Below, in pieces: positions 1,954 to 30,832 of a stretch of DNA of 38,913 nt. Both the position numbers and the translations under genes were made by a program. Every line of letters begins with the position of its first letter. Position 1 is the stretch's first letter. Origin of the DNA: Lachnospiraceae bacterium NK4A179 (GTDB lineage: Bacteria > Bacillota > Clostridia > Lachnospirales > Lachnospiraceae); contig ATWC01000031.1 of the NCBI GenBank assembly GCA_000421045.1, positions 1-38,913 of the forward strand. The letters are read 5' to 3'. The notes under the pieces are model-generated. The model had not been told where the DNA came from and searched no databases. It saw nothing but the letters and a program-made list of their open reading frames with translations.

Positions 1954-3684
1954 ATGGAACCTACAATAAATCCGGCACTGCAACCAACAAATACCCCGAT
2001 CCCCGCTCAGCAGATACAGTACCCTTATCATAGACCGGTCAATAAAACCATACCCTCTCTGTCCCACGAGACATACTTTGCCTTTATTTCGATCATCCTT
2101 GGATACTTCTATTGCCGTATGAACCACATTACCGGGAACAACGGTATAGGGACAACAATATATCAGATAGTTCTCTGCATATTTACAGCAATGTATCTTA
2201 AGAAAGCCAGGGGATGCAAACAGAATGCCACAAGCATTTTCATGCTCATATCATCGCTTCTCTTTGCTCTGTATTTCATGATATTTAACGGCGAAGCTGA
2301 AAGCATAGTCTCATTCTTTGGTTTCAACATCTGTTACATCATATGGGTTGCTGCATCCAGCGGATGTATCCTCCATTCAAAGAAGAGTTCTTATATAGGA
2401 TACAACCTCGGCCGTTCAGCATTTGCCATCCCCTTTGGAGAATGCGGAAACGGGATCAAGACCGCTTCGGATATCAAAAAGAAGCATGTATTAAAGCGGG
2501 CATCAGCGGTTTTGATCGGTATACTGCTCACCATCCCTTTAGCCGCTGTCATACTGATGCTCCTTGGATCAGCCGATGCGCTTTTTGGACAGCTGATGAG
2601 ACCGTTGCTTCATATCCTTCCCAATATTGATGAGTATTTCATACTCAATAACCTCAGATGCATTATCCTTGGCATCCCTGTAGGCCTCTATTTATGCGGT
2701 CTGGTTATAGGTCACAGCAGAGTGGCCAGGATGAATCTCTGCAGGAAAGAAGCCGGTGATGACAATGAGGCAGCTTTAGACAAGGCTGCAGCAGCTCACT
2801 TCTATCCGGACTTTACGGATATAGCAAATACTGTCGAACTCAAAAAATTAAAGGATTATACGAAAACGACTGCAACTGATCTGGATGCGAAGGCAGCAAA
2901 GAAGAGACTGATCCCTTCTGTGACGCTCATTACAATGCTTACCGTACTGAATGCCATTTATGCAGTGTTCCTTACAATACAGTTCCCTGTCATCTCGGCA
3001 GCATTTTCAAACTACCTGCCCGAAAACATGACATATGCAGAATATGCAAGAAGCGGTTTCTTCCAGCTCTTTGCCGTGGCTATGATAAACCTTTTTGTGA
3101 TCATCGCGGTTATGATGCTCCATAAGGAGCTTACAGGCAGGGCATTTAAAGTGCTCCGGATCGAAAACACCGTATTATGTCTCTTTACCATAGGACTTTC
3201 CGTAACAGCATTCCGCAGGATGTATCTCTACATATCTGTTTACGGACTTACAAGACTTCGTGTTTATACATCACTGTTCATGATATACCTGATCATCGTG
3301 TTCGCTGCATGCATAATAAGGCAGTTTAAAGAATACAATGCCGCAGGATTCTCGACAGCGGTCGGAGTGGTATTTGCCTTATTCTTTGTATTCGGAAATA
3401 TCGATTCAAATATAGCTGCCTATAATCTTCGCGCTGTAGAAGCCGGAACGCTTGAAGCACACGGAGTAGTAAAAGCCCTTGAAGGCAGCGGCGCCATGGT
3501 TCAGATCGCCGACTACGAAAGCAGACTTACAGCTGAAGGCACACCCGAAGATGATCCGCTGCTTTCCGAACTCAGATATCGTCTCACTTATGCCCATTCC
3601 GACATAAATCGAAGCGAAGAGTTTGATATACAGTCATATGCTTTAAACAAAAAGATCGAAGCATTCCGTAAGCAGCATCCTTGA
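1954..3684 (+). CDS. DUF4153/DUF4173 polytopic membrane protein
   Basis: The 576-residue protein has roughly ten to twelve hydrophobic helices between residues 40 and 490, then a soluble tail. A segment near residue 355 (MTYAEYARSGFFQL) and one near residue 425 (RMYLYISVYGLTRLRVYT) are the motifs by which the DUF4153/DUF4173 family is recognised. The function of the family is unknown. AAAGGAGA precedes the ATG, and it follows the regulator by 29 bases, so it is the third gene of the DUF2975 operon. It ends 8 bases from the 3' end of the convergent ABC operon; no clear terminator is visible between them. Confidence 0.78.
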   Translation: MEPTINPALQPTNTPIPAQQIQYPYHRPVNKTIPSLSHETYFAFISIILGYFYCRMNHITGNNGIGTTIYQIVLCIFTAMYLKKARGCKQNATSIFMLISSLLFALYFMIFNGEAESIVSFFGFNICYIIWVAASSGCILHSKKSSYIGYNLGRSAFAIPFGECGNGIKTASDIKKKHVLKRASAVLIGILLTIPLAAVILMLLGSADALFGQLMRPLLHILPNIDEYFILNNLRCIILGIPVGLYLCGLVIGHSRVARMNLCRKEAGDDNEAALDKAAAAHFYPDFTDIANTVELKKLKDYTKTTATDLDAKAAKKRLIPSVTLITMLTVLNAIYAVFLTIQFPVISAAFSNYLPENMTYAEYARSGFFQLFAVAMINLFVIIAVMMLHKELTGRAFKVLRIENTVLCLFTIGLSVTAFRRMYLYISVYGLTRLRVYTSLFMIYLIIVFAACIIRQFKEYNAAGFSTAVGVVFALFFVFGNIDSNIAAYNLRAVEAGTLEAHGVVKALEGSGAMVQIADYESRLTAEGTPEDDPLLSELRYRLTYAHSDINRSEEFDIQSYALNKKIEAFRKQHP

Positions 3685-3692
3685 TCTGTTTT

Positions 3693-5174
3693 TCATTCTC
3701 TGCTGCAGGATATGATCCTGTCACAGAAATTCTCTGCGAGCACTCGGTCATGCGTGACAAATATCACAGTCATGCCGCTTCTGTCACAAAGATCCGATAT
3801 CATCTTTACCACATCACGTCCTGCGGTCACATCCAGCGCACTGGTTATCTCATCGCAAAGCAATAACGAAGGGCCGGTAAGAACAGCTCTGAGTATCGCC
3901 ATGCGCTGGCACTGTCCGCCGCTTAGATTTGAAGGTCGCCTTGCGAAAAGACCGCTTTCAAGGCCAAAATTCTTTCCGACCGATACCATCTCGTCAAAGC
4001 GTTCCCTGTCTCTTCTCTTAATGCCCTTTCTCTTATCGGAAAGCTTCATTGCATCCAATATCGAATGTTTAACGGTAAGTACAGGATTAAACGAAGCATA
4101 AGCATCCTGAAATACAGTTTTTACCGTTTCAAAACGATCATTATCCGTCAGATCCCCAACATCGGTTCCGTTGTAAAGGACTTTCCCGCTGTCAGGCTTT
4201 TCAATACCGGATATCATACGTAAGAGCGTTGATTTGCCTGCCCCCGACTTGCCGATGATACCGACTATCTCCGAACGCTTTACGTTAAAACTTATATTTT
4301 CCAGAGCTTTGATCTCTTTGCCGTTTACGCTGTAAGATTTTGAAACATCCTCTATCTGAAGGAACACCTCAGTGTCATCATGCTTTTTTCTGTCAGGTGA
4401 GATGCGCACGCCTTTCTTCGGAACAGCCGATATCAGTTCTTTCGTGTAAGCATCCTTCGGAGCACTTAATACCTCATCCGTTGTCCCATGTTCAACTATC
4501 TTTCCCTCATGCATCACATATATTTCATCAGCGATCTCTCTGGCAAATCCCAGATCATGTGTGACAAGAAACAAAGGTATGCCCTCTTCTTCCCTGCATT
4601 TTTTCAGACTTGTTATAACTTCCTTCTGTGTGTCCTTATCAAGAGCGCTGGTCACTTCATCGCATAAAAGTATCCTCGGCTTAAGCAGCATGATAAGCGC
4701 TATGGCAGTTCTCTGGCACATGCCTCCGCTGAGTTCATACGGGCAGCTCTTCAGTATCCTCTCACCGTCCGAAAGCCCGACTTTTTCAAAAGCTTCAAAG
4801 ATCAGATCTTTATCATATGCAATGCCATTACTGCTTAATGTTTCCTTAAACTGCTTTTCAATTATCCTTATAGGATTGAATGCCGAAGCGGGATTCTGCT
4901 GTATGAGTCCCAGATCCTTTCCGGGTGCAGGAAAAAGCAGGCGTTTACCGTTCTCAACGATCTTTTCCCCGTAAATCTCTATACTTCCGTCAGTTATGCG
5001 GCCTCTGTAATCCTTAAGTCCCATCACAGCCTTCAGCACGGATGATTTGCCGCTTCCGGATTCACCCAAAAGGCAGACTATCCCATTCTCTTTAAGTGAG
5101 ATGTCTGCTCCGCATACTGCCCTCTGATGTCCGTATTGAATTTCCAGATTTTTAATATCAAGTGCGTTCATCAC
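3693..5174 (-). CDS. Fused two-domain ABC transporter ATPase (DppD-DppF / NikD-NikE type)
   Basis: Two complete nucleotide-binding domains are joined in one 493-residue chain. The first has Walker A GESGSGKS (37-44), signature ELSGGMCQR and Walker B ILLCDEVTSALD. The second starts near residue 270 with Walker A GKSGAGKS, signature NLSGGQCQR and Walker B LLLCDEITSALD. The two ATPases that are normally separate in peptide/nickel importers are fused here. It would power the permeases encoded upstream. The start overlaps the permease gene by 17 bases. GTG 5174 and ATG 5171 are both possible starts; the reading frame is the same. It is the last gene of the operon. Confidence 0.9.
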   Translation of the reverse strand: MMNALDIKNLEIQYGHQRAVCGADISLKENGIVCLLGESGSGKSSVLKAVMGLKDYRGRITDGSIEIYGEKIVENGKRLLFPAPGKDLGLIQQNPASAFNPIRIIEKQFKETLSSNGIAYDKDLIFEAFEKVGLSDGERILKSCPYELSGGMCQRTAIALIMLLKPRILLCDEVTSALDKDTQKEVITSLKKCREEEGIPLFLVTHDLGFAREIADEIYVMHEGKIVEHGTTDEVLSAPKDAYTKELISAVPKKGVRISPDRKKHDDTEVFLQIEDVSKSYSVNGKEIKALENISFNVKRSEIVGIIGKSGAGKSTLLRMISGIEKPDSGKVLYNGTDVGDLTDNDRFETVKTVFQDAYASFNPVLTVKHSILDAMKLSDKRKGIKRRDRERFDEMVSVGKNFGLESGLFARRPSNLSGGQCQRMAILRAVLTGPSLLLCDEITSALDVTAGRDVVKMISDLCDRSGMTVIFVTHDRVLAENFCDRIISCSRE

Positions 5175-5976
5175 TCAAACGGTCTCTCACGGCATCGCCG
5201 AAATAATTGAAGATCACAACAGTAACAAATACCGCGATCGCAGGAGAAAGCACTGCCCACGGTGAAAGTGTTATATAGGCTCTTGATTCATTGATCATTG
5301 ACCCCCACTCAGCCTGCGGAGGCACTGCTCCGAGTCCCAGAAACGAGAGACCTGCAATACCCGTAAGAGTACTTCCCAACTGAGTTGCCGCTGTAACGAT
5401 CAAAGGCCCTGCCACGTTAGGCATAATATGAACCAATAGTATATGAAGTCCGCTTCCTCCGTTTTCTTTTGCCGCAGCAATAAACGGTTCATTCTTAAGT
5501 GCTATGGTATGAGCCCTTGCGACCCTTGCATATACCGTCCAGCCGGTAACACCCATTGCAATACATGCATTGATAAGACTTCCGCCTAGCAGGCCTGATA
5601 CTGCTATGGCAAGTACCATCTGCGGGAACGAAAGGAAAAGATCGCATATGCGCATAAGTATCCTGTCTGTTATGCCGCCTGCCCATCCTGCCACCATTCC
5701 CGAAACCATGCCCACAAGCATTGACGCAATTACAAGCAGGACCGAGCTGAAGACTGATGTAGCTGCACCGGCCATTATCCTTGAAAGAACGCATCGTCCG
5801 TACCGGTCAGTGCCCAAAAGGAACGAAGGTGACGGCGGCGAATTTTTAAACAGAGCATTTGTAGCATTCGGGTCATGGGGCATGAATAAAGGAGCCAGTA
5901 TTGAAAAAAGCACTAACAGTATCACGATTCCCAGAGTTACCCTGAATCTTATCTCTGCCATTCTCTCCTTTCTCAC
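5158..5976 (-). CDS. ABC transporter permease, DppC/NikC type
   Basis: The 272-residue inner-membrane protein has an N-terminal helix followed by HDPNATN and GTDRYGRCVLSRI, a segment typical of DppC/NikC proteins. It then has the binding-protein-dependent transport domain with an EAA-like loop (KENGGSGLHILLVHIMPN). AAGGAGG lies 8 bases before GTG 5976, whereas the ATG at 5961 has a poorly spaced site, so GTG is the preferred start. GTG overlaps the stop of the preceding permease (GTGA), which indicates translational coupling. It pairs with the 5973-6902 permease to form the channel. Confidence 0.9.
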   Translation of the reverse strand: MRKERMAEIRFRVTLGIVILLVLFSILAPLFMPHDPNATNALFKNSPPSPSFLLGTDRYGRCVLSRIMAGAATSVFSSVLLVIASMLVGMVSGMVAGWAGGITDRILMRICDLFLSFPQMVLAIAVSGLLGGSLINACIAMGVTGWTVYARVARAHTIALKNEPFIAAAKENGGSGLHILLVHIMPNVAGPLIVTAATQLGSTLTGIAGLSFLGLGAVPPQAEWGSMINESRAYITLSPWAVLSPAIAVFVTVVIFNYFGDAVRDRLSDERT

Positions 5977-10754: not shown

Positions 10755-12794
10755 TTAATTGAGCATACTGTTTACATTACCGCCATCAACAACATTCACA
10801 CGACACTTCATTATCTCTGAAGGGTTCTGCCCACTCATTATGGAATTGTACATCCATACAATGGGATCATGTCCCTGACCGAAAGGATCCTGACCTATAG
10901 CCGCAGCAATTATACCCTTCTTTATAAATTTGAATATCTCATCAGAATGATCAAATACCACAAGCGAAACTTTTCTGCCGGAATCCTCTATTGCTCTGGC
11001 AGCCGCAAGCGGAGTTCCTGTTGTGATATACATGCCTGTAGCATCAGGATTCCTTTGCAGTGCTGCAACAGCTTTGTTGTAAGCATCCTGTTCACTATCT
11101 TCTATCTTAATCGTTTCTGCCACCTTTATACCTGGATACTTTGACAGCTCCTTCATGAATCCTGCAAATCTCTGTTTATTAACATCTACCGTTTCATCAC
11201 CCACAAGAGCAATGACCTTGCCCGATCTGTTAAGCGCCTTATCCAACGATCTGGCAGCTATCACCCCCTGATCGAATACATCAGGCTGGAAACATGCATC
11301 CCTGTCTTTAGTCTGAGCACAGTCACAGTTAAAGCAATATACTTTCTTTCCGTTATTATGAGCCTTTCTTATATTATCCATTGCCCCGTCCATGAAGCCC
11401 GGGAATATGAATCCGTCAAAGCCCTCAGCTATCATCTCATCAACAAGTTCAGGCATTTTTTTTGCCTTATCCCAATCAGTGAAAGGAACATATCTTACCT
11501 CGGCATTATAGTCTTCAAGTTCCTTTCTTGCATAAACGATACCTCTGCGGACACTGTACCAAAAGTCATTATCAAGTATGCAGAACACACCGATCTTTAC
11601 CTTTTTCCCGGGAACCGAAGGAACCGGAACAACAGATGTGGTGAACTGTTTTAATAGATTCTGTATGCCCTTGAGCATAGAATCAAGAGAACCTACATTT
11701 TCACTTATCTTTGAGGATGTCTCAGCCGTAAGCTCTGATACACTTGCTATCTCCTCTGTTCCGCTCGTAGCCTCTTCGGAAGCACGGAAAGCCTGCATAG
11801 CCTTTTCCTTGGTAGCTCTTGAATTGTCTGTGATCGTATCGATCTTGGATGAGATATCCCGCATCTTTTCGTTTATCTCACCGGACTGTCTGTCTATCGT
11901 TCTGAACGAAGCACTTACTTCATCAAACTCTCGTCTGCTCTCAGCAAAAACCTTTGCACATTCATGTATGCTCTGATTAACTCTTTCACTGCTCTCCGAA
12001 ACATTAGCCAGGATCTCATTAATGCTGCCGATGCCTTCAAGTGTTTTCTCCGACATCTCGCTCATTTCCCTTGTTACGACCGCAAAGCCTTTTCCGGCTT
12101 CACCGACTCTGGCAACCTCGATCGAAGCATTAAGAGCAAGAAGCTGCAGGGATTCACTCATATCAACAATGAATGAACCTATGCTGTTGATCTCGGAAAG
12201 TCTCTCGCTGAATTCACGAAGTATCACTTCACTCTGCTCAAGATTATCGGAGACAAATTTCATTTTATTCTCGTAGTTTTCAAGATTTCCCACTCCGGTC
12301 TTGCAGCTTTCTGCAGATTCGTTCAGTATGCCGCCTATATTCTTTGCGGAACTGTCAATATCAGTAAGCTGTTCGGTATTCTCTTCGATAAGAGTAAGAC
12401 ATGAACCAACAAGATCCTGCTGTTCCTGAATCTTGTTTACTATTTCAGAAAGACTTGCGGAAAGCTGCTGGCTTCCGTCTTTGTTTTTTTCTGAGCCTTC
12501 GGAAAGTACATCTATCGCATCCGAAAGAACCACCACATTTCCCTTTGTGGCTTCAAGAAATGTTTGGAGATTATTCTTTATGACATTTATCGCATCACCG
12601 ATCGCTCCATGCGATGAGGCGGTATCACTGATCTCAAGATCATCAATATCCACGCGTCTTTTCTTGAGCTCGTCCGCCTGGCTGATGACTTTCTTCATCT
12701 GATTCTTGTCACCAAGACTTTTGTAGATAAGGAAGATGATAAAAACTGCCTCGATAACTGCAACCACCCCAAGTAAGATCACTAAAGTCCCCAT
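10755..12794 (-). CDS. Chimeric chemoreceptor: membrane anchor, MCP signalling hairpin, C-terminal sugar-binding (PBP) domain
   Basis: The 679-residue protein has one N-terminal membrane helix (about 4-24). A long coiled-coil MCP region (about 60-385) includes the hairpin tip ([19 protein letters not shown], about 216-234). A Pro-rich linker (VVPVPSVPGKK) leads to a complete periplasmic-binding-protein domain of the ribose/xylose class (398-679), with KIGVFCILDNDFWYSVRRG, GFDGFIFPGF and VVFDHSDEI. There is no second membrane helix and no cleavable signal, so the MCP and binding domains should be on the same, cytosolic side. In normal receptors sensing is extracellular. TAAGGAGG precedes the ATG. 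It lies 91 bases downstream of the arabinofuranosidase gene on the same strand with no obvious terminator between. The ligand is unknown; a cytosolic sugar is inferred. Confidence 0.85.
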   Translation of the reverse strand: MGTLVILLGVVAVIEAVFIIFLIYKSLGDKNQMKKVISQADELKKRRVDIDDLEISDTASSHGAIGDAINVIKNNLQTFLEATKGNVVVLSDAIDVLSEGSEKNKDGSQQLSASLSEIVNKIQEQQDLVGSCLTLIEENTEQLTDIDSSAKNIGGILNESAESCKTGVGNLENYENKMKFVSDNLEQSEVILREFSERLSEINSIGSFIVDMSESLQLLALNASIEVARVGEAGKGFAVVTREMSEMSEKTLEGIGSINEILANVSESSERVNQSIHECAKVFAESRREFDEVSASFRTIDRQSGEINEKMRDISSKIDTITDNSRATKEKAMQAFRASEEATSGTEEIASVSELTAETSSKISENVGSLDSMLKGIQNLLKQFTTSVVPVPSVPGKKVKIGVFCILDNDFWYSVRRGIVYARKELEDYNAEVRYVPFTDWDKAKKMPELVDEMIAEGFDGFIFPGFMDGAMDNIRKAHNNGKKVYCFNCDCAQTKDRDACFQPDVFDQGVIAARSLDKALNRSGKVIALVGDETVDVNKQRFAGFMKELSKYPGIKVAETIKIEDSEQDAYNKAVAALQRNPDATGMYITTGTPLAAARAIEDSGRKVSLVVFDHSDEIFKFIKKGIIAAAIGQDPFGQGHDPIVWMYNSIMSGQNPSEIMKCRVNVVDGGNVNSMLN

Positions 12795-12885
12795 AATATT
12801 GCCTCCTTAAGCAGAAATTCTTTCCGTCAAAAGCAGTTAACCACTACATTATTATTTTATTATTTAGCCGCAAATCATACAAGAC

Positions 12886-14388
12886 TTACTTTCCGAAACG
12901 TATGACATTCCAGGAAGCCGGCTTCATAACTGTACTGAAGATTCCCCCGTCCATTTTCCAGTCGGTTTTCTCGCAAGGCTTAACACGCTCATTATCCGCA
13001 TCATTTACCGCAAGCATGTCATTACCCTCAATTGCCGTATACTCAATTACACGGTATCCCTCAAAGCTTCTCATGTCGGCCTCAAAAGTAACCGCTTCCT
13101 TTATATGCCTGTTAACCGCAAATATGGTCACTTCATCTTTTTCCTTATTCCATACAGCGGCAGATTTGATATCCGTTACATTCTCATGCTTTGATGTTGA
13201 ATGCGTTCCTCCATGGCTTACCACATGAAGCGCTGTTCCGCGTCCATAGCAGGATGCCTGCATGAACGGATAGAATATCGTCTGTCTCCAGGCCTTTCCG
13301 TCGGTCTCAGTCATGATAGGCGCTATAACATTTACAAGCTGCGCCAAACATGCCATACGGACACGGTCAGAATGATTTATAAGCGTGATAAGGAGCAATC
13401 CGTCCATGATCGCATCCTCATAATCATAATGATCTTCAAGCAGATGAGGTGCCTTTCTCCAAGGCTTCTTTGCCATATCATCCTCATCGGAAGCTATCTG
13501 ATGAAACCATACATTCCACTCATCAAACGAAAGCTTCATAGTCTTCTTGGAACGCTTCTTTGCCTTTACAAAATCACAGGCACAGGTCACGGTATTTATG
13601 AAGCTGTCCATATCATCAGCTGATGCAAAGAAATCCTCTGTATCATTCGCGCTGTTGCCGTAATAGCTGTGAAGCGAGATGTAATCCACATAATCGTAAT
13701 CTTCTGTGAGAGTCGTTTCTTCCCACATAGGGAAAGTATCCATTGTTCCTGTGGAACTTCCGCACGAGATCAGTTCGATTGAAGGATCCATGAATTTCAT
13801 TGCCTTTGCTGTTTCAGCCGCAAGACGTCCATATTCTTCGGCAGTCTTATGTCCTACCTGCCACGGACCGTCCATCTCATTTCCCAGGCACCACAGTTTT
13901 ATATCATAAGGTTCCTTGCGACCGTGACTGCGTCTCATATCAGCATAATACGAATCGGCATCCAGATTGCAGTATTCAAGAAGATTAAGAGCATCCGTTA
14001 CGCCTCTTGTTCCCAGGTTTAATGCCATCATGATCTCTGTATCGGCTTTTTTTGCCCACTTTGCAAACTCACCAAGCCCGAAATCATTAGGTTCAAGCGT
14101 ACGCCAGGCAAGATCAAGCCTGGGCTTTCTCACCGGCCCGACCGAATCCTCCCAGTAAAAATTTGAAACATAGTTTCCTCCGGGATACCTCACAACCGGA
14201 ACATTCAGTTCCTTTACAAGTTCCAGCGTATCCTTTCTGAAACCATCTTCATCGGCAGATGCATGACCGGGCTGATATATTCCCTCATATACAGCACGTC
14301 CGAGGTGTTCAATGAAAGAACCATATAAACGCTTGTCTATCTCAGCCAGTGTAAATTCCTTATCTACGACTATCTTTGTCTTTTCCAT
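12886..14388 (-). CDS. Intracellular alpha-L-arabinofuranosidase, GH51
   Basis: The 500-residue protein has no signal peptide and matches GH51: YGSFIEHLGRAVYEGIY, then VVRYPGGNYVSNFYWED, the acid/base glutamate in WCLGNEMDGPW (E171) and the nucleophile in LSFDEWNVWF (E290). The C-terminal part forms the usual beta-sandwich region. GH51 enzymes remove arabinofuranosyl groups from arabinan or arabinoxylan oligosaccharides, here in the cytosol after uptake. GAGG lies 8 bases before the ATG. An extended -10 promoter may lie at 14431-14461. The chemoreceptor/PBP gene follows directly and may be co-expressed. Confidence 0.93.
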   Translation of the reverse strand: MEKTKIVVDKEFTLAEIDKRLYGSFIEHLGRAVYEGIYQPGHASADEDGFRKDTLELVKELNVPVVRYPGGNYVSNFYWEDSVGPVRKPRLDLAWRTLEPNDFGLGEFAKWAKKADTEIMMALNLGTRGVTDALNLLEYCNLDADSYYADMRRSHGRKEPYDIKLWCLGNEMDGPWQVGHKTAEEYGRLAAETAKAMKFMDPSIELISCGSSTGTMDTFPMWEETTLTEDYDYVDYISLHSYYGNSANDTEDFFASADDMDSFINTVTCACDFVKAKKRSKKTMKLSFDEWNVWFHQIASDEDDMAKKPWRKAPHLLEDHYDYEDAIMDGLLLITLINHSDRVRMACLAQLVNVIAPIMTETDGKAWRQTIFYPFMQASCYGRGTALHVVSHGGTHSTSKHENVTDIKSAAVWNKEKDEVTIFAVNRHIKEAVTFEADMRSFEGYRVIEYTAIEGNDMLAVNDADNERVKPCEKTDWKMDGGIFSTVMKPASWNVIRFGK

Positions 14389-14488: not shown

Positions 14489-15403
14489 TCAGAACAGATC
14501 CAGCGAGCTGTCCAGATATATATTTTCACGCACTTTTAATGCATATTCGGGCTTTGTCATATAATAGATAAGAAACTCTAAGATCATTGCACTTCCAAGA
14601 CTCCTGCCTTCTATCTTAAATTCAGAAAATCCCATGGGCATATATATATCCGTAATATCATTGATGCCAATAAATCCGGGATTCTCCATTGCTTTAGAAA
14701 ACACATAGCCGTCACTTGCATCTGATGCCCTGCATATATGATCCTCACAATCCTCGCCAAGCATCTTCCTGCTTACATTTTCATAGCATGCTTTCCTGTC
14801 CGCACATCCGAAAGAACAGCATTCATTGCATAAGAATTCAACCTTACGTTTTTCAGAGGAATTCAGGGAATCCAGTTCTTCAAATCTTTTATTCAACCTG
14901 AAATCCGGCACCACAAAACGGAATTCGTCCCTGGCCAGTTCCTTTTTAAAATCCTCAAAATCAGTTATCACCTTTGTTGTTGATGATACAAAATAAAGAT
15001 CAGGATACTTCTCCCTTATATATTCAAGAAGCAGATTGGAATAGATAATGACGCCATTTTCAGCTTCTCCGTTATGTTCAAACATCGCACAGAGTTCATT
15101 GCATTTGCGATCTTTCAGATGTTTGATTTCAAGAAGCGAATTGCTGAAGGTCAGTCTCGCGGATATGCCATATTCGCTAAGAAGCTTTGCTGCTTCTTCT
15201 GCAGTATCTTCCCCAAAGCCTGCCCTACCTCCTCCCCATAAACATTCTGCAGGGCTTCCGTATACCGAGCCTATCTCACACCAGTCATAAAAATATTCCC
15301 TGTGCCCGTAAAATAAAGAGAAGAATTTCCTGTAGAACCCACAAAACTCAAAGAGTCCCGGGAGATGAAAATATGCCTTTTTTATTATTTTTTCATTTGT
15401 CAT
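14489..15403 (-). CDS. U32 peptidase-like protein with a cysteine cluster
   Basis: The roughly 304-residue protein begins MTNEKIIKKAYFHLPGLFEF. It has TIM-barrel-like segments (VIIYSNLLLEYIREKYPDL and FRFVVPDFRLNKRFEEL), a dense cysteine cluster (FLCNECCSFGCADRKACYE) and the sequence FKIEGRSLGSAM. KIEGR after a cysteine cluster is typical of the U32 family (PrtC, YhbU, UbiU), whose members hold an Fe-S cluster. The match is by eye, and the protein is more divergent than usual U32 members. The frame can start at ATG 15448 or 15403; neither has a clear Shine-Dalgarno, and 15403 was chosen for its TATAAT-containing upstream. It stands alone between the GH51 gene and the divergent GGDEF gene. Confidence 0.55.
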   Translation of the reverse strand: MTNEKIIKKAYFHLPGLFEFCGFYRKFFSLFYGHREYFYDWCEIGSVYGSPAECLWGGGRAGFGEDTAEEAAKLLSEYGISARLTFSNSLLEIKHLKDRKCNELCAMFEHNGEAENGVIIYSNLLLEYIREKYPDLYFVSSTTKVITDFEDFKKELARDEFRFVVPDFRLNKRFEELDSLNSSEKRKVEFLCNECCSFGCADRKACYENVSRKMLGEDCEDHICRASDASDGYVFSKAMENPGFIGINDITDIYMPMGFSEFKIEGRSLGSAMILEFLIYYMTKPEYALKVRENIYLDSSLDLF

Positions 15404-15471
15404 GATCTGATTATACTGCTGATCAGTTTCATCAGACAGTCCTACCATTAGTGATGGAAAAAAAAGCGTTT

Positions 15472-15524: not shown

Positions 15525-17444
15525 ATGGCTAAGAGAAAGATTGCTGTATTTTCAACCGGATGGGCATCAGAAATACTCGCAGAGTATCTTGAAGGCCTAA
15601 GACAGGCGTTCAAGGGACATGATATTGACATGTTCCTTTTTTTGAATTATTCGACTATAGATGAGATCGAAGATATCAAGCGTGTTGAGCTCGATATTTT
15701 CAGGCTGCCTGAACTTAAGTATTATGACGGTGCCGTGATCTTCGGAAATGCGATCGATTATCCCAGTGAGGTTGAAAAGCTCGTAGCCAGATGTAAGAAG
15801 GCCAATATTCCCGTGGTATGCCATGGTGTGGATATAGATGGTACATATAAGGTTCTTTCCGATAATTATATCGGTATGAAAGAGCTTACTGAGCACCTTA
15901 TACAGAAGCACAATGTCAAAAAGATCAATTTTATTTCCGGTGCCGCCGAGAACATGGATGCCCAGATCAGACTCAGAGCTGTCAGCGATGCCATGGAAGC
16001 GAACGGTCTTTCATTTTCCGAATGTGATGATGTCTTTTACACCAACTGGGAAGTAAACAGATCATATAATCATGCTGCCTCACTTTCGCAAAACAATAAA
16101 CTTCCCGATGCCATCTTATGTGCTAATGATGAGCTTGCTATGGGTGCATGTCTTGCCCTTCGCGATAACAATGTAAAAGTTCCCGAGGATGTGATCGTAA
16201 CCGGTTTTGACAATATATTGAGAGCACGTATCTTCTACCCTTCCATTGCATCCGTTGATCAGTTTTTTACAAAACACGGATATGAAAGCGGCAGGATACT
16301 TATAGATGTGCTCGACGGCGTAAAACGTGACATGGTATCCAATATAGCATGTGGTTTCGTTCCCGGTGAAAGCTGTGGATGTTTTGAAGACGGTAACAGT
16401 ACTGAACTCAGAAAAGTTGCCGGAACAGACTCCTTTAGTGATAATGTCTATCGTATGATAGCCGGACGACACTACAATAGTATTTCAAGAGCAATACTCT
16501 CCTGCAGTTCCTATGGTGAGATCAGGAACCGTCTGGCAGAGGTCATGAATGCCGACCACTCTATAGAAGGCGATAACATACACATACTTATCGACCCGGA
16601 AAAGCTCAGATCCCAGGTTAGCCACACCACAAAAGTGATAAGGCAGGGCAAGTCCATCAAGCTTGATGTCATTTTTTCCATGAAAGACGGAAAGGTCCTC
16701 GATGACAAAGATTTTGATATTAAGCAACTTATTCCGGGATATCAGGACAGTGACCCTGAGCATATGTATGTTTTTGTTCCTCTCCATACCCAGAATAAGA
16801 TCGTCGGATATATCGTATTCTGCGACTGCTTTAAGCAGATCCATACAAGGGATCTTCATGTATACTACAACAACTTTAATCAGGCATTTGAAAAATTCAT
16901 CCAGAATGAGTACCTGCAGTATATGAATGACAGGCTTGTTGAGGTCGCACAGATCGATTCGCTCACTCATGTGAAAAACCGTTCTGCCTATGACAATAAA
17001 GAAAGCCAGCTGATGAAAAAACTGCTTGGCGGTACTCTTCAGAAATTCGGTCTGATAATGTTTGATATCAACAACTTAAAGCAGATCAATGACAAGTTCG
17101 GACATAATGCAGGTGATGAGTACATCCTCAATTCCTGCAAACTCATATGCCGCATTTTCAAACACAGCCCTATCTACCGTATGGGCGGTGATGAATTCCT
17201 TGTTATTCTGGAAAACAGCGACTATGACCAGAAGGATGAACTGCTTAAACAGTTCCGTAAGGAGCTTGAAGATATCAAAGCAGAATGGGATGATCTTGCA
17301 CCGGTAAACCGCATCTCTATCGCAAGCGGTATTGCCGTATTCACACCTGAGACCGACTCTTCCGTTGAAGATGTATACCGGAGAGCCGATACTCTCATGT
17401 ACATAAACAAGAAAGAAATGAAATCAGATCAGAGTCATAAATAG
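15525..17444 (+). CDS. Cytosolic sugar-binding (LacI effector-like) domain fused to a GGDEF diguanylate cyclase
   Basis: The 639-residue protein starts directly with a LacI/RbsB-type effector domain (about 5-285: KIAVFSTGWASEIL, YDGAVIFGNAID, ILCANDELAMGACLAL, VIVTGFDN). It has no helix-turn-helix and no signal or membrane segment. A middle region (about 300-460) is GAF-like at best. The GGDEF domain occupies about 472-630 with intact catalytic motif YRMGGDEFLVI (GGDEF at 554-558) and FDINNLKQINDKFGH. The RxxD inhibitory site is absent (FKHS in its place), so product inhibition is not expected. Predicted role: make c-di-GMP in response to a cytosolic ligand, probably a sugar. GGAGG precedes the ATG. 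Its 3' end overlaps the convergent AEC gene by 21 bases. Confidence 0.88.
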   Translation: MAKRKIAVFSTGWASEILAEYLEGLRQAFKGHDIDMFLFLNYSTIDEIEDIKRVELDIFRLPELKYYDGAVIFGNAIDYPSEVEKLVARCKKANIPVVCHGVDIDGTYKVLSDNYIGMKELTEHLIQKHNVKKINFISGAAENMDAQIRLRAVSDAMEANGLSFSECDDVFYTNWEVNRSYNHAASLSQNNKLPDAILCANDELAMGACLALRDNNVKVPEDVIVTGFDNILRARIFYPSIASVDQFFTKHGYESGRILIDVLDGVKRDMVSNIACGFVPGESCGCFEDGNSTELRKVAGTDSFSDNVYRMIAGRHYNSISRAILSCSSYGEIRNRLAEVMNADHSIEGDNIHILIDPEKLRSQVSHTTKVIRQGKSIKLDVIFSMKDGKVLDDKDFDIKQLIPGYQDSDPEHMYVFVPLHTQNKIVGYIVFCDCFKQIHTRDLHVYYNNFNQAFEKFIQNEYLQYMNDRLVEVAQIDSLTHVKNRSAYDNKESQLMKKLLGGTLQKFGLIMFDINNLKQINDKFGHNAGDEYILNSCKLICRIFKHSPIYRMGGDEFLVILENSDYDQKDELLKQFRKELEDIKAEWDDLAPVNRISIASGIAVFTPETDSSVEDVYRRADTLMYINKKEMKSDQSHK

Positions 17445-18526: not shown

Positions 18527-20287
18527 TTATTTTTCAGGGATAGACTTTGCATCGCCGTACTTAGCTGCCCACTTCTCAGCTCTCTCGTCGATGATGTCCT
18601 GTCCGCCTGAGCTTAAGTAATCAGACATGTAAGAATCCCACTGTGCATCGAAATCTGCAGGATCTGCAAGGATCACGTTATCGTAAAGGATATCTCTCTT
18701 GTCAGCAAGAGCTGTTCCCATGCCTTCTTCTGCTTCAATAACACCTACGTTTACGTGTGTCTCCTGGATAGCATCAGTCTGAGCGATCTCGTTAGCTCTT
18801 TCAACGATCTCAGGCTCGATACCTGCATAGCTGTGACCGATAGACTTTGCTGTAACCTCAGGATCTACAAGATTAAGACCGTTGCAGGTGATAGTGTAAT
18901 CAATGTTGAAACCGGAGTTCATGATAGGATCGCCTGTTGCAGCAACTGACTCATAAGCACCGTCGTCAAGCTTATTGCATGTTACGCCTTCATCACCGAG
19001 CTGGAGATACTGAATGTGCTCGGGCATTGAGATCCACTCAAGGTAAAGAAGTGATGCAAGCGGCTCATCATTTGTTGTCGGGAAGAAGATCTTTCTGTCG
19101 CCGGCTGTTGATGTAACATACTTTGTGTGACCGCCGTTCTTGTCTGTGAAAGGATCGATAGCTACGAACTTAGCATCTTCGCCTACAGTACGCTTAAGGT
19201 TAGCATTGATGGAATCATCACCGTTTCTGAAAGGATAATCCCAGTTGTGTGTGAATGCGCCTACATAACCTGCCTTCATGTAGTCATCTTCTGTTGTATC
19301 GCCATTGCTGTAAAGAGCGAAATCCTTCCAGAGAAGGTCCTCATGATACCACTGGTTGAGGAGCTTTAAAGCATCCTTTGTGCCGGGCTCAGTGAGCTTT
19401 CTGTCATCGAAACCATTTACATAGAAATCATATGTTGAGATATCAGGATCGATGAATGATTCGATAAGTGTAGCTGCTCTCCAGCCTACATCGTAAGAGA
19501 TCGCATAAGGGATCATCTTATCAGCATCCTTGCCAAGAAGTGTATCGGCATTGTCTCTGAATGCAACGATAGTATCGTAGAATTCCTGAGTTGTTGTAGG
19601 CTCCTCAAGATTCAGCTTTTCAAGCCAGTCCTTACGGATGAAAGTATTGATACGGTTTGTTGTAGCTCTCTTACCTTCTATAGCCCAGAGGCTTCCTGTA
19701 TCGGGATCCTTATCCCAGTATACGTTGGTATCAGTAAGCCAGTTGAACAGGTTAGGAAGAAGTGCTGCATTGTCCTGTACAAGAGGAGCAAGATCCGTAA
19801 CACCGCCCATGTTGGCATATGTCTGAATAGTAGCGTAGTCGTATGTAAGACAGATGTCAGGTGCTGTACCTGCAGCAAGCAGGTTGTTCAGCTCATCAAC
19901 CTCTGTCCATCTGGGAACTGCTACGAACTGAACATCTACGTTGTAGTCGTTGAGCATTCCGTCATGGATATACTTTGTGTACATGTTGTTTGTAGGATCA
20001 GTTCCGCCATCATTACCACGGTCATAAACTTCAACAGTGATAGATCTGGTCTCAGGGAACTTTCCGTCTACAAGCTGTCCGCCGCCGGTGGTATCTCCAA
20101 CGCTGGTATCGGTTGTAGGTTCAGCCTCTTCGGAACCTGCACCCGCATTTGCATCGGCTCCGCCCTCATCACCCGATCCGGCATTTGTGTCAGCGGGTTT
20201 TGATGATCCGCCGCCATTGCTTGTGCATGCAACAGCTGATACTGTCATAACTGATGCAAGCAACAGTGATAAAACTCTTCTTTTCAT
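18527..20287 (-). CDS. Sugar ABC importer substrate-binding lipoprotein (LplA/YtcQ-like)
   Basis: The 586-residue protein has a lipoprotein signal (lipobox SAVAC, Cys about 21) followed by a Gly/Ser/Asp/Ala-rich linker of about 50 residues. A family 1 extracellular binding domain follows (TVEVYDRGND, AAGTAPDICLTYDYA, FIRKDWLEKLNL and YVGAFTHNWD). Its large size and its partners (LplB- and AraQ-like permeases) match importers of oligosaccharides such as oligogalacturonides and rhamnogalacturonan fragments. A uronate-containing substrate is inferred from co-transcription with uxuA and uxuB. It is the last gene of the operon, and a strong terminator follows. Confidence 0.9.
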   Translation of the reverse strand: MKRRVLSLLLASVMTVSAVACTSNGGGSSKPADTNAGSGDEGGADANAGAGSEEAEPTTDTSVGDTTGGGQLVDGKFPETRSITVEVYDRGNDGGTDPTNNMYTKYIHDGMLNDYNVDVQFVAVPRWTEVDELNNLLAAGTAPDICLTYDYATIQTYANMGGVTDLAPLVQDNAALLPNLFNWLTDTNVYWDKDPDTGSLWAIEGKRATTNRINTFIRKDWLEKLNLEEPTTTQEFYDTIVAFRDNADTLLGKDADKMIPYAISYDVGWRAATLIESFIDPDISTYDFYVNGFDDRKLTEPGTKDALKLLNQWYHEDLLWKDFALYSNGDTTEDDYMKAGYVGAFTHNWDYPFRNGDDSINANLKRTVGEDAKFVAIDPFTDKNGGHTKYVTSTAGDRKIFFPTTNDEPLASLLYLEWISMPEHIQYLQLGDEGVTCNKLDDGAYESVAATGDPIMNSGFNIDYTITCNGLNLVDPEVTAKSIGHSYAGIEPEIVERANEIAQTDAIQETHVNVGVIEAEEGMGTALADKRDILYDNVILADPADFDAQWDSYMSDYLSSGGQDIIDERAEKWAAKYGDAKSIPEK

Positions 20288-20357
20288 GTTACTCCCTTCC
20301 TTTCTTGCTTTTAGTTTTTGCTAATTTATTAAATGAAAGATCTCATTTGATCCACAT

Positions 20358-21269
20358 TTATTCCTTTACGGCACCGACCATAACACTGTGTATGAAATAC
20401 TTCTGCAGCCAGGGATATACACACAGTATCGGTATGGTTGTGAACATTACTATCGCTGCCTTTAACGAATTGCCAAGGCCCGGTGTGGAAAAGCCTTCCT
20501 GTGTGGAAACCTCCACGTTATTTATATTGTTGATAACGTTGTAAAGAAGAAGCTGTAAGGGATAGTACTTGGTGTTCTTGATATACATAAGAGCATCAGA
20601 GTATCCGTTCCATCTGCCCACCGCATAGAAAAGTGCAAGCGTTGCTATAACCGGCTTTGAAAGCGGCAGATATATAGTCGTAAGTATCCTTATGAAACCT
20701 GCTCCATCGATCTCTGCTGCTTCTCTGAGTGAATCAGGTATCTGATAGAAGAAGCTTCTCATTATTATCATGTTGAATACCGAGAGGCATGACGGAACGA
20801 TCAGTGAAAGCGGATTATCAAGGAATCCTATCGATTTCATAAGCAGGTAGTTAGGTATCGTTCCTGCATTGAAAAACATTGTGATCGTTATTACTATGTT
20901 GAAGAATCCTCTTCCTCTGAGCTTCGGGTATATCAGAGGATATGCGCAGCATGCTGTCATGAAAAGTGAAAGCAGTGTGCCTACTATTGTAAGGAATACA
21001 GTCCATACAAACGCCCAGATATACTTCTTATCTGAAAGTACTGTCTGATATGCAAATAAAGTAAATCCCTTGGGAATCAGATAAACCTCACCCTTTACCA
21101 GATAGTCGGAACTGGACAGTGATTTTGCTAACAGGTTTATCAGAGGGATCACACATATCAGAGTGATAATGATGCAGAGACCTATGATCACATAATCCCC
21201 GAACTTGAACCTGTTTTTATTCTTAACTCTTTCTTTGATCCTGTTTACTTTTATACTTGAATCAGCCAT
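20358..21269 (-). CDS. Sugar ABC importer permease, AraQ/YtcP type
   Basis: The 303-residue protein has six membrane helices and the EAA loop EAAEIDGAGFIRILTTIYLP. The start at ATG 21269 is chosen because GGAGG lies 5 bases upstream; the longer frame from 21296 lacks such a site and overlaps the intergenic gap. The C-terminus (FIHSVMVGAVKE) is typical of AraQ-like permeases. It forms the channel with the 21306-22265 permease. Confidence 0.92.
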   Translation of the reverse strand: MADSSIKVNRIKERVKNKNRFKFGDYVIIGLCIIITLICVIPLINLLAKSLSSSDYLVKGEVYLIPKGFTLFAYQTVLSDKKYIWAFVWTVFLTIVGTLLSLFMTACCAYPLIYPKLRGRGFFNIVITITMFFNAGTIPNYLLMKSIGFLDNPLSLIVPSCLSVFNMIIMRSFFYQIPDSLREAAEIDGAGFIRILTTIYLPLSKPVIATLALFYAVGRWNGYSDALMYIKNTKYYPLQLLLYNVINNINNVEVSTQEGFSTPGLGNSLKAAIVMFTTIPILCVYPWLQKYFIHSVMVGAVKE

Positions 21270-21305
21270 TTTAACCTCCGATGCTGTAATAGGCATTTAA
21301 ATTTA

Positions 21306-22265
21306 TTACCAGATTCCACGTTCTCCGAACTTCTGCGCCACCTTATTAGAGATGAGCAGGAAGATAACTCCGACTACAGACTGGAAAAGACCTATGGCTG
21401 TAGTAAACGAGAACTTAAGTCCTTTAATACCGTTTGTGTAAACATAGGTTGAAAGAACTTCCGCATACTGCATGACGGTGTTGTTCTGGAATGCAAACGG
21501 TCTGTCAAAACTTGATCCGAGGATATTACCAAGGTTCATGATAAGAAGCACAACGATCGTTGATCTTATTCCGGGAAGAGTAATGTGCCAGATCTTGTCC
21601 CAGCGTCCGGCACCGTCAACTTCCGCTGCTTCATACAGTTCGTTATTGATACCGGCAATAGCTGCAAGATAAATGATCGAATTCCATCCGAAGCTCTGCC
21701 ATATACCTACAAAGATATATGTGAATACCCAATGTGTGGGCTCATTCAAAAACGGGATCGTATCACCGCCAAGCTTCTGGATAAGCTGATTTACCAGTCC
21801 GTTTGTAGGAGCAAAAAGCTGAAGTGCGATACTTGAAACGATGACCCATGAAAGGAAATGCGGCATATATGCAACAGTCTGTACCACTTTCTTGAATCTC
21901 TGAAGTCTGAGTTCATTAAGCATTATCGCGAAGATGATAGGTATAGGGAAACCTATTACCAGATCCAGAAGGTTGAGCACTACTGTGTTTCTGAGTGCGT
22001 TCCAGAAATCTCTGTTATTGAATGCTTTTATAAAGTATTCAAAACCGTGATTCTTTGCGAGAGGCATTTCCCAGACACTCTGTACAAGCGAATACTTCTT
22101 GAATGCGATCTGGATATATACCATGGGTACATATTTGAAGATTGCGAAGTAAACCATAGGAAGGAACAGCAGCAGATAAAGCTGCCAGTACCTCTTAAAA
22201 TACGTACCGAACTCCTGTGGGGAAAACGGCTTCTTTTCCTTTTTTGTTTTCTTTTTTTTACCCAT
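21306..22265 (-). CDS. Sugar ABC importer permease, LplB type
   Basis: The 319-residue protein has a Lys-rich N-terminus (MGKKKKTKKEKK), six membrane helices and the EAA loop EAAEVDGAGRWDKIWHITLP. It ends QKFGERGIW, as LplB homologues commonly do. AAGGAGG precedes the ATG, only 9 bases after uxuB. No ATPase gene is present in the operon. Such importers commonly share an MsmX/UgpC-type ATPase encoded elsewhere. Confidence 0.93.
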   Translation of the reverse strand: MGKKKKTKKEKKPFSPQEFGTYFKRYWQLYLLLFLPMVYFAIFKYVPMVYIQIAFKKYSLVQSVWEMPLAKNHGFEYFIKAFNNRDFWNALRNTVVLNLLDLVIGFPIPIIFAIMLNELRLQRFKKVVQTVAYMPHFLSWVIVSSIALQLFAPTNGLVNQLIQKLGGDTIPFLNEPTHWVFTYIFVGIWQSFGWNSIIYLAAIAGINNELYEAAEVDGAGRWDKIWHITLPGIRSTIVVLLIMNLGNILGSSFDRPFAFQNNTVMQYAEVLSTYVYTNGIKGLKFSFTTAIGLFQSVVGVIFLLISNKVAQKFGERGIW

Positions 22266-22274
22266 GATTCCTCC

Positions 22275-23894
22275 TTAAACACTTTCATTTACATATTTTT
22301 TCAGCACTGCTCTGACAGAGCCCGGTGTGCTGTTCATTTCTTCGAAATAACTTAATACCTTTTCGGATAAGCCAGCCTTATTAAGATCAGCTCCGAATAT
22401 CTCCTTTTTAGAAAGAAGTTCCAGGATAGCATCCCTGTCCTTTATACCTGAGCCGTATGGATTCTTTGCCATATAAGGCTCGGCAATTTCAATTCCGGGG
22501 TCCGGACTCTTCTCCATCGGATTGCCCTCATCATCATAGCCTGTGAGATATCTGAGCCATCCGGCAAACACAAGAGGGATCATTCTTAAGTTGTCTGTAT
22601 CAAGCCCGCGCTCGATATATCTGCTGATCGTTATACCGAATCTGATCGGAAGCTTCTTTGAAGTATCCGTAGCTATTCTCTGAGGCGTATCGGGAAGGAA
22701 AGGATTCGGGAGTCTCTTTTTGATCACGGTATCGATAAAATCCGAAGGCTTTATTATTCCGGGATCATCTGCAACAGGGAGCCCTTCCTTATAACCTATG
22801 CTTTCTGCCAATTTCTTAAGATCCGGATCCTTCATCTCATCCGAGATCTTTTTGAAACCGAGAAGGCATCCGAATACAGCAAGTGATGTATGTACAGGAT
22901 TGAGACATGTTGTAACCTTCATGCTCTCTGCCTTCATTACTGTTTCCCTGTCGGTAAAATAGAAACCTGCTTTTTCGAGAGGAGGACGACCTGCCGGGAA
23001 ATCATCTTCTATAACAAGGTATTCTGTCTCCTCTGTATTTACAAAACCTGATGTGCAGGTATGCATTTTTGTTTCGGTTAATTCAATATCCTCTACCCCT
23101 GCATCCTTAAGCTCGTTAAGAATATTTAAATCCGGACGCGGAGTTATCTTGTCTATCATCGTCCAGGGGAAGGACACTTTGTTATTGTCACGCAGATATG
23201 CCTCAAACTCCGCGTCCGAGAGGCCACGTTCACACCAGGTACCTGCTATCTCAAGTATCGCACTCTTTAAAAGATCGCCATTGCGTGAGCAGTTGTCCAT
23301 GCTTATACATGCAACCGGATATGCTCCGTTTTTGAATCTGTGGTAGATAAGTGCTGCCACTTTTCCTATATAGCTTTCAGCCTTTTCAGGTCCTGCTTCC
23401 ATGTCATGAGCAACAGCCTTGGAGTAATTACCGCTTCCGTCTCTTAAGCTGTAGCCTTTTTCGGTTATAGTGAATGAGATCATCTGGAGAGAAGGAGAAG
23501 CAAATATCTCCTTCAGTCTTCCGTAATCCTTTCCTCCACTTCCATCCAGAACACAGGACTCCATAACAGATCCGATCACTTTTTTCTTTATATTTCCGTC
23601 TGATCCGAGAGTCATCAGAAGTGACAGATTATCATATGGAGTGTATGCCTTTTCTATAATCTCGTAATCAAAACCTTCGCATACGATAAGTCCTCTGTCA
23701 TACTCGCCTGAATCCAGAAGAGCCTGCATTGCAGGTGCCTGCAGAGCTCTGAAGATATTACCTGCTCCAAAATGCACCCATACCGGCTGCTGCTTTGTTT
23801 TTTCGTATACTGACTTATAATCAAATGCGGGAAGCTCTATTCCTGCTGCCAGCCATTTTTCCTTATCCTCTATTCCTTTACGTGTTAATTTCAT
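22275..23894 (-). CDS. uxuB: Fructuronate reductase (D-mannonate oxidoreductase)
   Basis: The 539-residue protein belongs to the mannitol dehydrogenase / fructuronate reductase family. It has the NAD-binding motif VHFGAGNIFRA (about 40-50), a conserved MIDKITPRPD and the active-site region LNPVHTSLAVFG with the family Asn and His. UxuB reduces D-fructuronate to D-mannonate, the step before UxuA in glucuronate breakdown. A tagaturonate reductase (UxaB) role is the main alternative, but fusion with uxuA in one operon favours UxuB. The ATG overlaps the uxuA stop (ATGA), so the two are translationally coupled. Confidence 0.9.
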   Translation of the reverse strand: MKLTRKGIEDKEKWLAAGIELPAFDYKSVYEKTKQQPVWVHFGAGNIFRALQAPAMQALLDSGEYDRGLIVCEGFDYEIIEKAYTPYDNLSLLMTLGSDGNIKKKVIGSVMESCVLDGSGGKDYGRLKEIFASPSLQMISFTITEKGYSLRDGSGNYSKAVAHDMEAGPEKAESYIGKVAALIYHRFKNGAYPVACISMDNCSRNGDLLKSAILEIAGTWCERGLSDAEFEAYLRDNNKVSFPWTMIDKITPRPDLNILNELKDAGVEDIELTETKMHTCTSGFVNTEETEYLVIEDDFPAGRPPLEKAGFYFTDRETVMKAESMKVTTCLNPVHTSLAVFGCLLGFKKISDEMKDPDLKKLAESIGYKEGLPVADDPGIIKPSDFIDTVIKKRLPNPFLPDTPQRIATDTSKKLPIRFGITISRYIERGLDTDNLRMIPLVFAGWLRYLTGYDDEGNPMEKSPDPGIEIAEPYMAKNPYGSGIKDRDAILELLSKKEIFGADLNKAGLSEKVLSYFEEMNSTPGSVRAVLKKYVNESV

Positions 23895-24973
23895 TTGTTC
23901 TGAAGATCCTTCTTTCCTTTGATCACTGCCTCCCAGAGGCCATTTAAATATGCTGCGCCAAGTGCTCTGTCATAAAGACCGTAACCCGGCATTCCTTTTT
24001 CGTCCCAGATCATTCTTCCGTGATCAGGTCTTACCGGACCGTCAAATCCAACCTCTATAAGAGCCTTTACGATCTCATACATATCAAAGCTTCCGTCTTC
24101 AGAAAGATGAGCAGCTTCTTCAAAATCAAGACCTTCGCTGTAACGTATATTTCTGATATGTGCAAAATGTATCCTGCCCTCAAGCGATCTGATGATATCG
24201 GGAAGATCATTATTCTTGTCCGATCCGAGTGATCCGGTGCATAGTGTCATTCCGTTGTGAACATCATCAACTGCCTTCATGAGTTTCAGTACATTCTCTT
24301 TGTTTGTGATGATCCTCGGAAGTCCGAACACACTGTGTGCCGGATCATCGGGATGTATCGCCATCTTGATATCGTACTTATTGCAGACAGGCATTATCTT
24401 TTCAAGAAAATAAACAAGATTGTTGAAGAGATCTTCTTCCGAAACATTTTCATAAAGATCGAACAGTCTGTGTATCTCAGCCATTCTTTCCGGCTCCCAG
24501 CCCGGCATTACAGTTCCGTTCGTATTGTCTTTTATGGAATCAAACATCTTCTCCGGATCGGTGTTTTTTACTACCTCATCTTCATAAGCCATTACGGTCG
24601 ATCCGTCGGGACGTTCTTTTGCAAGATTTGTTCTAGTCCAGTCAAATACAGGCATGAAGTTGTAACATACCATGTGAATATCTTCTTCACCGAGAGCCTC
24701 AAGTGTCTTTATATAATTCTCTATATAAAGCTCCCTGTCGCCGGTTCCGGCTTTTATATCATCATGTACATTAACGCTCTCGATACCTGAGATCTTAAGA
24801 CCTGCAGCTGCTGCATCAGCCTTAAGAGATTTTATCTCTTCACGAGTCCAAAGCTCTCCCGGCTTCTTTCCGTAAAGAGTAGTGATCACTCCTTTTACTC
24901 CGGGAATCTGAGCGATATACCTTATCGGTATAGTGTCATATCCGGTTCCGAACCATCTGAATGTCATTTCCAT
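23891..24973 (-). CDS. uxuA: Mannonate dehydratase
   Basis: The 360-residue protein starts MEMTFRWFGTGYDTIPI and matches UxuA throughout, including the metal-binding segments AIHPDDPAHSVFG, TLCTGSLG, IHFAHIRN and RPDHGRMIW. These supply the His, Cys, His and Asp ligands known for this family. The enzyme converts D-mannonate to 2-keto-3-deoxygluconate. The ATG at 24973 has AGGA 10 bases upstream; the frame stays open to 25150, but the extra residues are not family-like and cross the regulatory region. Its length matches the Gram-positive UxuA class. It is the first gene of the uronate operon. Confidence 0.95.
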   Translation of the reverse strand: MEMTFRWFGTGYDTIPIRYIAQIPGVKGVITTLYGKKPGELWTREEIKSLKADAAAAGLKISGIESVNVHDDIKAGTGDRELYIENYIKTLEALGEEDIHMVCYNFMPVFDWTRTNLAKERPDGSTVMAYEDEVVKNTDPEKMFDSIKDNTNGTVMPGWEPERMAEIHRLFDLYENVSEEDLFNNLVYFLEKIMPVCNKYDIKMAIHPDDPAHSVFGLPRIITNKENVLKLMKAVDDVHNGMTLCTGSLGSDKNNDLPDIIRSLEGRIHFAHIRNIRYSEGLDFEEAAHLSEDGSFDMYEIVKALIEVGFDGPVRPDHGRMIWDEKGMPGYGLYDRALGAAYLNGLWEAVIKGKKDLQNK

Positions 24974-25030
24974 ATTTTCTGTTTCCTGTTCTTTAAATTT
25001 TTTCCCAAAAAGCAAGGTGTTTGCGTTTGT

Positions 25031-25122
25031 TTGTGCACAATTTACAACATTGTTTGCTATGTCTTGTGCGTTTTTGCATAATGCACAATACGAGCTACTT
25101 CTTATTGTGTAATTTTGCACAA
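25031..25122. promoter_or_regulatory. Cluster of TTGTGC/GCACAA half-sites upstream of uxuA
   Basis: The 305-base gap between uxuA and the AraC gene contains a perfect palindrome TTGTGCACAA (25031-25040), an inverted pair TTGTGC-N13-GCACAA (25064-25088) and a third pair TTGTG/CACAA (25105-25122). They lie 58-149 bases before the uxuA start. These are candidate operators for the divergent AraC regulator or a CRP-like factor; which one is inference. No convincing -35/-10 pair for uxuA could be chosen. The rest of the gap holds the AraC promoter. Confidence 0.5.
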
Positions 25123-25224
25123 ATTTCAGGATTATGATACTTTTTCCCAATTTCCTCTATACATCCTGACGACAAAATTATAAAGTTTAGAGCAATAATT
25201 GAACATTGTTGTAACTGTCTGAAA

Positions 25225-25243
25225 CATTGCAGAGACTGCAATG
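25225..25243. promoter_or_regulatory. Perfect palindrome over the -35 box of the AraC-family gene
   Basis: CATTGCAG-AGA-CTGCAATG (25225-25243) has 8-base perfect arms and covers the probable -35 TTGCAG (25227-25232). It is a candidate repression site. Confidence 0.55.
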
Positions 25244-25255
25244 ATATGCTATTTT
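25227..25255 (+). promoter_or_regulatory. Promoter of the AraC-family regulator gene
   Basis: -35 TTGCAG (25227-25232), a 17-base spacer and -10 TATTTT (25250-25255) lie 23 bases before the ATG at 25279. Confidence 0.5.
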
Positions 25256-25278
25256 TGTAGTAAACGAGGTAACTAAAC

Positions 25279-27085: not shown

Positions 27086-27160
27086 GGTATCGCCTTTCTG
27101 ATCAATCTGTAATTTTTGATACGTTCTGCAGTTATGCTGCCACAAGTATCTCTATCAGAT

Positions 27161-30763: not shown

Positions 30764-30832
30764 TTTTGTCCTCCACAAAGAGTAATCGGCTTATGCGTTA
30801 AAACGATTTACCTGTTTGAAAAAATCGACTAA

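Follow-up and report, generated by a model that had tools for sequence, protein, structure and literature searches.

It is an old question whether bacteria steer by signals sensed outside the cell or by the yield of their own metabolism, and the sensor on the metabolic side is mostly unknown. The question is raised by a gene in the window analyzed here, the 38,913 nt of contig ATWC01000031.1 from Lachnospiraceae bacterium NK4A179, which encodes a methyl-accepting chemotaxis protein (MCP) with a sugar-type binding domain at its C terminus: on which side of the membrane does this domain lie, and what could it report to the motility system? The gene and its parts are laid out as follows.

10755–12794, minus strand: whole gene, MCP with a C-terminal Peripla_BP_4 domain, 679 aa (open reading frame with ATG start; Pfam).
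12726–12782, minus strand: single N-terminal membrane helix, residues 5–23, predicted N-out/C-in (hydropathy, charge bias, AF2 helix 2–44).
12564–12713, minus strand: HAMP-like helix-loop-helix on weak evidence, residues ~28–77 (AF2 helix 2–44, loop 45–60, and helix from 61 on; hhalign).
11643–12614, minus strand: MCP signaling hairpin, residues ~61–384 (PF00015 at 183–327; alignment with seven resident MCPs; AF2 helix 61–382).
12075–12149, minus strand: hairpin tip, residues 216–240, with S-L-Q in place of the usual Q-T-N (sequence comparison).
11601–11642, minus strand: linker, residues 385–398 (between the hairpin end from the alignment and the first AF2 strand at 399).
10764–11600, minus strand: ribose-type binding domain, residues 399–677, cytosolic (PF13407, 137 bits; AF2; Foldseek).
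12802–12807, minus strand: Shine-Dalgarno-like AGGAGG, seven bases before the ATG (sequence).
12886–14388, minus strand: upstream neighbor ArfA, an alpha-L-arabinofuranosidase whose adjacency is not conserved (NF051901, 729 bits, cut-off 625).

Both domains were recognized by Pfam well above threshold, MCPsignal (PF00015) over residues 183–327 at 70.8 bits (cut-off 34.6) and a complete Peripla_BP_4 (PF13407) over residues 408–650 at 137 bits (cut-off 35.1). Together with hydropathy, these matches bear out the order of parts given in the initial annotation, namely one N-terminal helix, an MCP hairpin, and a full binding domain. An AF2 model built from 47 aligned sequences (mean pLDDT 81.7, pTM 0.56) consists of a helix (2–44), a loop (45–60), a single long helix (61–382), and an alpha/beta domain (399–677); pLDDT is lowest at the tip, about 60, and the expected turn is not resolved within the continuous 61–382 helix. 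The HAMP-like region matched six resident HAMP regions weakly (hhalign E 0.00025, probability 43% local and 11% global), and Pfam did not report PF00672 (HAMP) for the window protein.

The initial annotation had called for a search for the same domain order in other genomes, and this order was found in 80 kept loci, each with the MCP tip and then the binding-domain motif within one open reading frame. Because the order is kept in these loci and both Pfam domains are present in all 49 members scanned, we could exclude chance or a chimera. The loci derive from an alignment-based scan of named genomes that found 129 relatives, of which 80 were kept at 32–73% identity (some being one contig under two names, and L065 and L067 coming from one genome); a single-sequence scan of the named genomes had found no relative. 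Most are Lachnospiraceae metagenome-assembled genomes from rumen and gut samples, and the others include Herbinix hemicellulosilytica, Mobilitalea sibirica, Thermoclostridium caenicola, Acetivibrio alkalicellulosi, Herbivorax sp., and Pseudobacteroides cellulosolvens (two copies), so that the relatives are spread over gut and plant-degrading Clostridia. Within the family, 397 genomes were searched and yielded 17 matches at E ≤ 1e-30, comprising nine full-length homologs (the window's own included), five membrane-free proteins of a second group, and three stand-alone exported binding proteins. In a draw of 398 genomes from the phylum, the fusion occurred only in the window's own genome and in G573, which has two such proteins; a third match (L141) is an ordinary receptor.

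The N-termini of these relatives speak to the topology. Among 81 proteins (the 80 loci plus the window), one membrane helix is predicted in 56, two in 19, and none in 6, and all three classes precede the same MCP and binding domain; the one helix of the window protein distinguishes it from purely cytoplasmic chemoreceptors. The six helix-free loci represent five genomes and start just ahead of the hairpin, with an in-frame stop 6–12 nt upstream in the five helix-free N-termini inspected. Lysine and arginine are commoner on the C-terminal than on the N-terminal side of the helix in 54 of the 56 one-helix members. No second hydrophobic segment was detected in the hairpin or linker of the 81 proteins, the highest 19-residue Kyte-Doolittle mean being 1.34 against a threshold of 1.6. 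Because of the helix-free members and the charge bias, we place the binding domain in the cytosol, as the initial annotation had done; the one-helix, two-helix, and helix-free forms can be reconciled only if both rod and binding domain are cytosolic. Its position along the rod, by contrast, has to be revised from the membrane-distal placement originally assigned. The MCP rod is an antiparallel hairpin, so its C-terminal end comes back to the membrane-proximal base, and the domain therefore lies there, next to the HAMP-like region and away from the distal tip. The natural series of two, one, and zero helices lends itself to testing what anchoring in the membrane contributes.

Foldseek matches of the binding domain are sugar-binding proteins (best 5dkv_B, E 7.4e-17; AraP 6sw4_A, TMt 0.82), and its best solved relatives, GanP, XylFII, and the Thermotoga maritima glucose-binding protein, bind sugars. 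The pocket positions, which we take to be equivalent to those contacting the sugar in E. coli RbsB, are kept in a set of 49 sequences chosen for position counts from those fetched: F411, W412, N489, and D615 in all 49, R542 in 47, and Q635 in 46, with position 409 being Asn in 32 and His in 17. N489 aligns with Asp in the three solved relatives and with Asn in the three nearest exported proteins, and is therefore a feature of the subfamily. Two of the exported relatives (L149 and L151) adjoin genes for a CUT2-type ATPase and permease and the third (L150) adjoins an ATPase gene; their loci also carry DUF4432 and dehydrogenase genes, and that of L149 encodes a D-psicose-3-epimerase-family protein (354 bits, cut-off 300). 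As for the features of CUT2 solute-binding proteins, the window protein has the Peripla_BP_4 fold and the sugar-type pocket, whereas signal-peptide export is absent and the domain stands behind a cytosolic MCP rod. Since the pocket positions are kept and the exported relatives sit in CUT2 loci, a monosaccharide or close derivative appears the likeliest class of ligand. The L150 locus also encodes, at 3214–5445 on the minus strand, a 744-aa protein that joins a LacI-type HTH to SBP_bac_1 and in which a transport-type binding domain again appears to work inside the cell.

We propose that the protein is probably a membrane-anchored chemoreceptor that senses a cytosolic monosaccharide through its CUT2-type binding domain. 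The membrane helix would only tether the rod to the receptor array, and the domain, which continues from where the C-terminal helix ends, would be suspended in the cytosol near the membrane, at the base of the MCP bundle. Binding of a cytosolic monosaccharide or close derivative would close the two lobes, closure would alter the packing of the helix end and, through it, CheA activity at the tip, and the cell would thereby weigh sugar already imported or released. The ligand, lobe closure as the signal, the coupling to CheA, and the direction of the response are steps that we infer. Such a receptor, with its sugar-binding domain inside the cell and joined directly to the rod, would offer a defined molecule with which to address the old question of outside versus metabolic sensing.

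This proposal depends on whether the MCP region can join arrays, a dependence already recognized in the initial annotation, and here the rod gives evidence in both directions: its length matches that of the resident receptors and the core residues of its tip are kept, but the Q-T-N of the tip is replaced. The C-terminal arm from Glu226 to residue 384 spans 158 residues, compared with 160–162 to the end of six of the seven resident receptors and 153 in the other; long gap-free alignments were obtained with two of the seven (144–384 with L005, 196–384 with L006) and alignments with small gaps with the other five. Tip residues L219, N222, E226, and G231 are kept in 49 of 49 members and R229 in 44, whereas Q-T-N is replaced in every one of the 49. 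A methylation site of the strict consensus is present in 12 of the 81 proteins and missing from the other 69, and each of the seven resident receptors has at least one. At +115 and +122, the two positions seen in the resident receptors, the window protein nevertheless has a pair of Glu residues, though the flanking residues fit imperfectly, and a Glu/Gln pair stands at +129 in 60 of the 81; because these pairs are kept, adaptation may be altered, not absent, and the comparison of methylation positions weakens the argument from adaptation both ways. The substituted tip and degraded consensus, together with the presence of the receptor in one genome (G068) without flagellin and FlhA, would suit an MCP-like protein that has diverged, enters arrays inefficiently or never, and either signals elsewhere, a non-flagellar output being one example, or affects how arrays assemble but senses nothing. 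We consider such a protein unlikely, given the invariant tip residues, a hairpin length near that of the resident receptors, and the CheW domain found in all 13 other fusion genomes examined (eight of the window's group and five of the second group) and in the window's own; G068 itself keeps CheA, CheW, and CheR.

Two further alternatives concern the binding domain. Binding proteins of this fold also act as protein partners, as RbsB does with Trg, and all 49 sequences share the surface motif Q640-G-H-D643, so the domain could serve for docking or dimerization, with a transporter or another protein as a possible partner and no small molecule being sensed. The pocket positions, however, match the fold in degree of conservation, and the exported proteins L023, L025, and L027 carry a similar Q-G motif, which need not be a docking site; we regard this alternative as distinctly improbable. 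The domain name and the hydrophobic N terminus might instead suggest an inverted topology, with the domain exported and sensing outside. Helix-free relatives, two-helix members with the same downstream part, and the excess of Lys and Arg behind the helix in 54 of the 56 one-helix members led us to reject export, to which we assign a very slight chance.

Cytosolic sensing by an array-borne receptor also presupposes the chemotaxis machinery. In the window's own genome we found CheA (622 residues), CheW together with CheC, CheR, flagellin, and FlhA, as well as a protein the size of CheV that carries a CheW domain. Against its presence in 13 of 13 other fusion genomes, a CheW domain was found in 131 of 250 genomes of the family, a comparison with a family sample at ≥90% completeness in which the sets overlap and relatedness is uncorrected. 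One CheA-sized match per genome was found in eight of eight genomes plus the window's own, and flagellin in 14 of 15. In G068 (96% complete; loci L019 and L115), where the receptor, CheA, CheW, and CheR are present and flagellin and FlhA were not found, the chemosensory system possibly has a non-flagellar output; CheR was not found in G187, which is 75% complete. Regions upstream of the receptor genes showed no enrichment of a flagellar (sigma-28-like) promoter, with scores of at least 10 in 5 of 78 regions versus 9 of 267 controls. Elsewhere in the window, 26252–27145 on the minus strand encodes a short soluble MCP of 297 aa that ends soon after an unusual tip, K-S-N-I-L-A-L-N, and L010, elsewhere in the genome, is like it in size and truncation.

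The same domain order is found in a second group, in which six of seven proteins lack membrane helices and all seven have the canonical tip. We constructed trees with 26 of the 81 window-group sequences, rooted at the midpoint and containing some long branches. In the binding-domain tree, the window's group clusters with exported lipoproteins and with two exported binding proteins of its own genome (94/80, drawn open), and the second group forms a separate clade with the two G573 proteins (99/99). In the rod tree, support is 100/100 for the window's group and 99/99 for the others, and the deeper branching is weak (81/79). The two fusion groups are thus set apart with good support in these trees, but because the deeper branching is weak, two independent origins of the fusion are likely, not proven. 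Somewhat more tentatively, there may be a family of membrane-tethered receptors that steers motility by the concentration of free cytosolic monosaccharide and that was made at least twice, when uptake binding proteins were captured and turned inward; chemotaxis would then follow sugar income and not outside sugar.

The ribose-type fold serves as a sensor in XylFII-LytS (5xss_B, TMt 0.73) and BT1754 (2x7x_A, TMt 0.71), although these feed kinases and not an MCP rod. XylFII acts outside the cytoplasm, as does BT1754, the title of 2x7x reading "periplasmic domain." LacI-family regulators, and a protein encoded near the receptor, keep the same fold family in the cytosol with different outputs, DNA binding for the LacI family and presumably cyclic di-GMP for the neighboring protein. 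The latter (15525–17444, plus strand, 2.7 kb from the receptor gene) is a binding domain fused to GGDEF with no hydrophobic segment, an inward-facing use of the fold, and further long Peripla_BP_4-matching proteins are encoded in the genome (L133, 639 aa; L134, 668 aa; L137, over 784 aa). TlpT of Rhodobacter sphaeroides is, according to PMC6829392, a cytoplasmic chemoreceptor proposed to report metabolic state; like it, the window protein would sense inside, but it is membrane-tethered and has an identifiable sugar-type domain. Receptors whose ligand domain follows the MCP signaling domain, as in the window protein, form a poorly characterized subfamily for which PMC7390727 gives at least 17 domain types, CZB being the commonest; the domain here is a full two-lobe Peripla_BP_4, which those 17 types may already include. 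Two other papers mention one Peripla_BP_5 among chemoreceptor ligand-domain clusters (PMC8547431) and, for autoinducer-2 sensing, connect Peripla_BP_4 to LsrB/LuxP and MCPsignal to dCache but not Peripla_BP_4 to MCPsignal (PMC12268683). No description of Peripla_BP_4 behind an MCP was found in searches of open-license papers; C-terminal ligand domains on MCPs as such have already been reported.

The initial annotation had linked the receptor to the intracellular arabinofuranosidase encoded upstream. The receptor gene does start 91 nt downstream of the ArfA gene on the same strand, and the start of ArfA reads as having no evident signal peptide. The functional link, however, is unsupported: no ArfA relative was present in any of 93 fetched loci (some being the same contig twice, with flanks of at most 7 kb on many), and we rejected the pairing. 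ArfA is probably not part of the system and, as this neighbor is not conserved, arabinose is no better supported as a ligand than other monosaccharides. Between the two genes, no promoter- or terminator-like site was detected, by a scan that picks up no more such sites than in shuffled sequences. In the two closest genomes (L031, and L037, which is the same contig as L111), the receptor gene adjoins an AraC-UxuA-fructuronate-type operon, and AraC, UxuA, mannitol-dehydrogenase-type, and further genes at 18527–26181 of the window are syntenic with both. Pfam scanning of 70 upstream neighbors (72 available, two over 1100 aa dropped) recognized chorismate synthase in 8, EF-Ts in 6, GH10 in 5, and GH43 in 4; among 74 downstream neighbors (77 available, three dropped) it recognized TGT in 9, AraC-type HTH in 8, and GH113 in 3. 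No operon partner emerged, the recognized neighbors being mixed and mostly housekeeping or varied, with glycoside hydrolases in the minority. Directly upstream of ArfA, the 319-aa product of 14489–15448 (minus strand) had no Pfam or NCBIfam match. Farther along, between two MCP genes, 27260–30778 on the minus strand encodes a protein of 1172 aa that weakly matches leucine-rich repeats.
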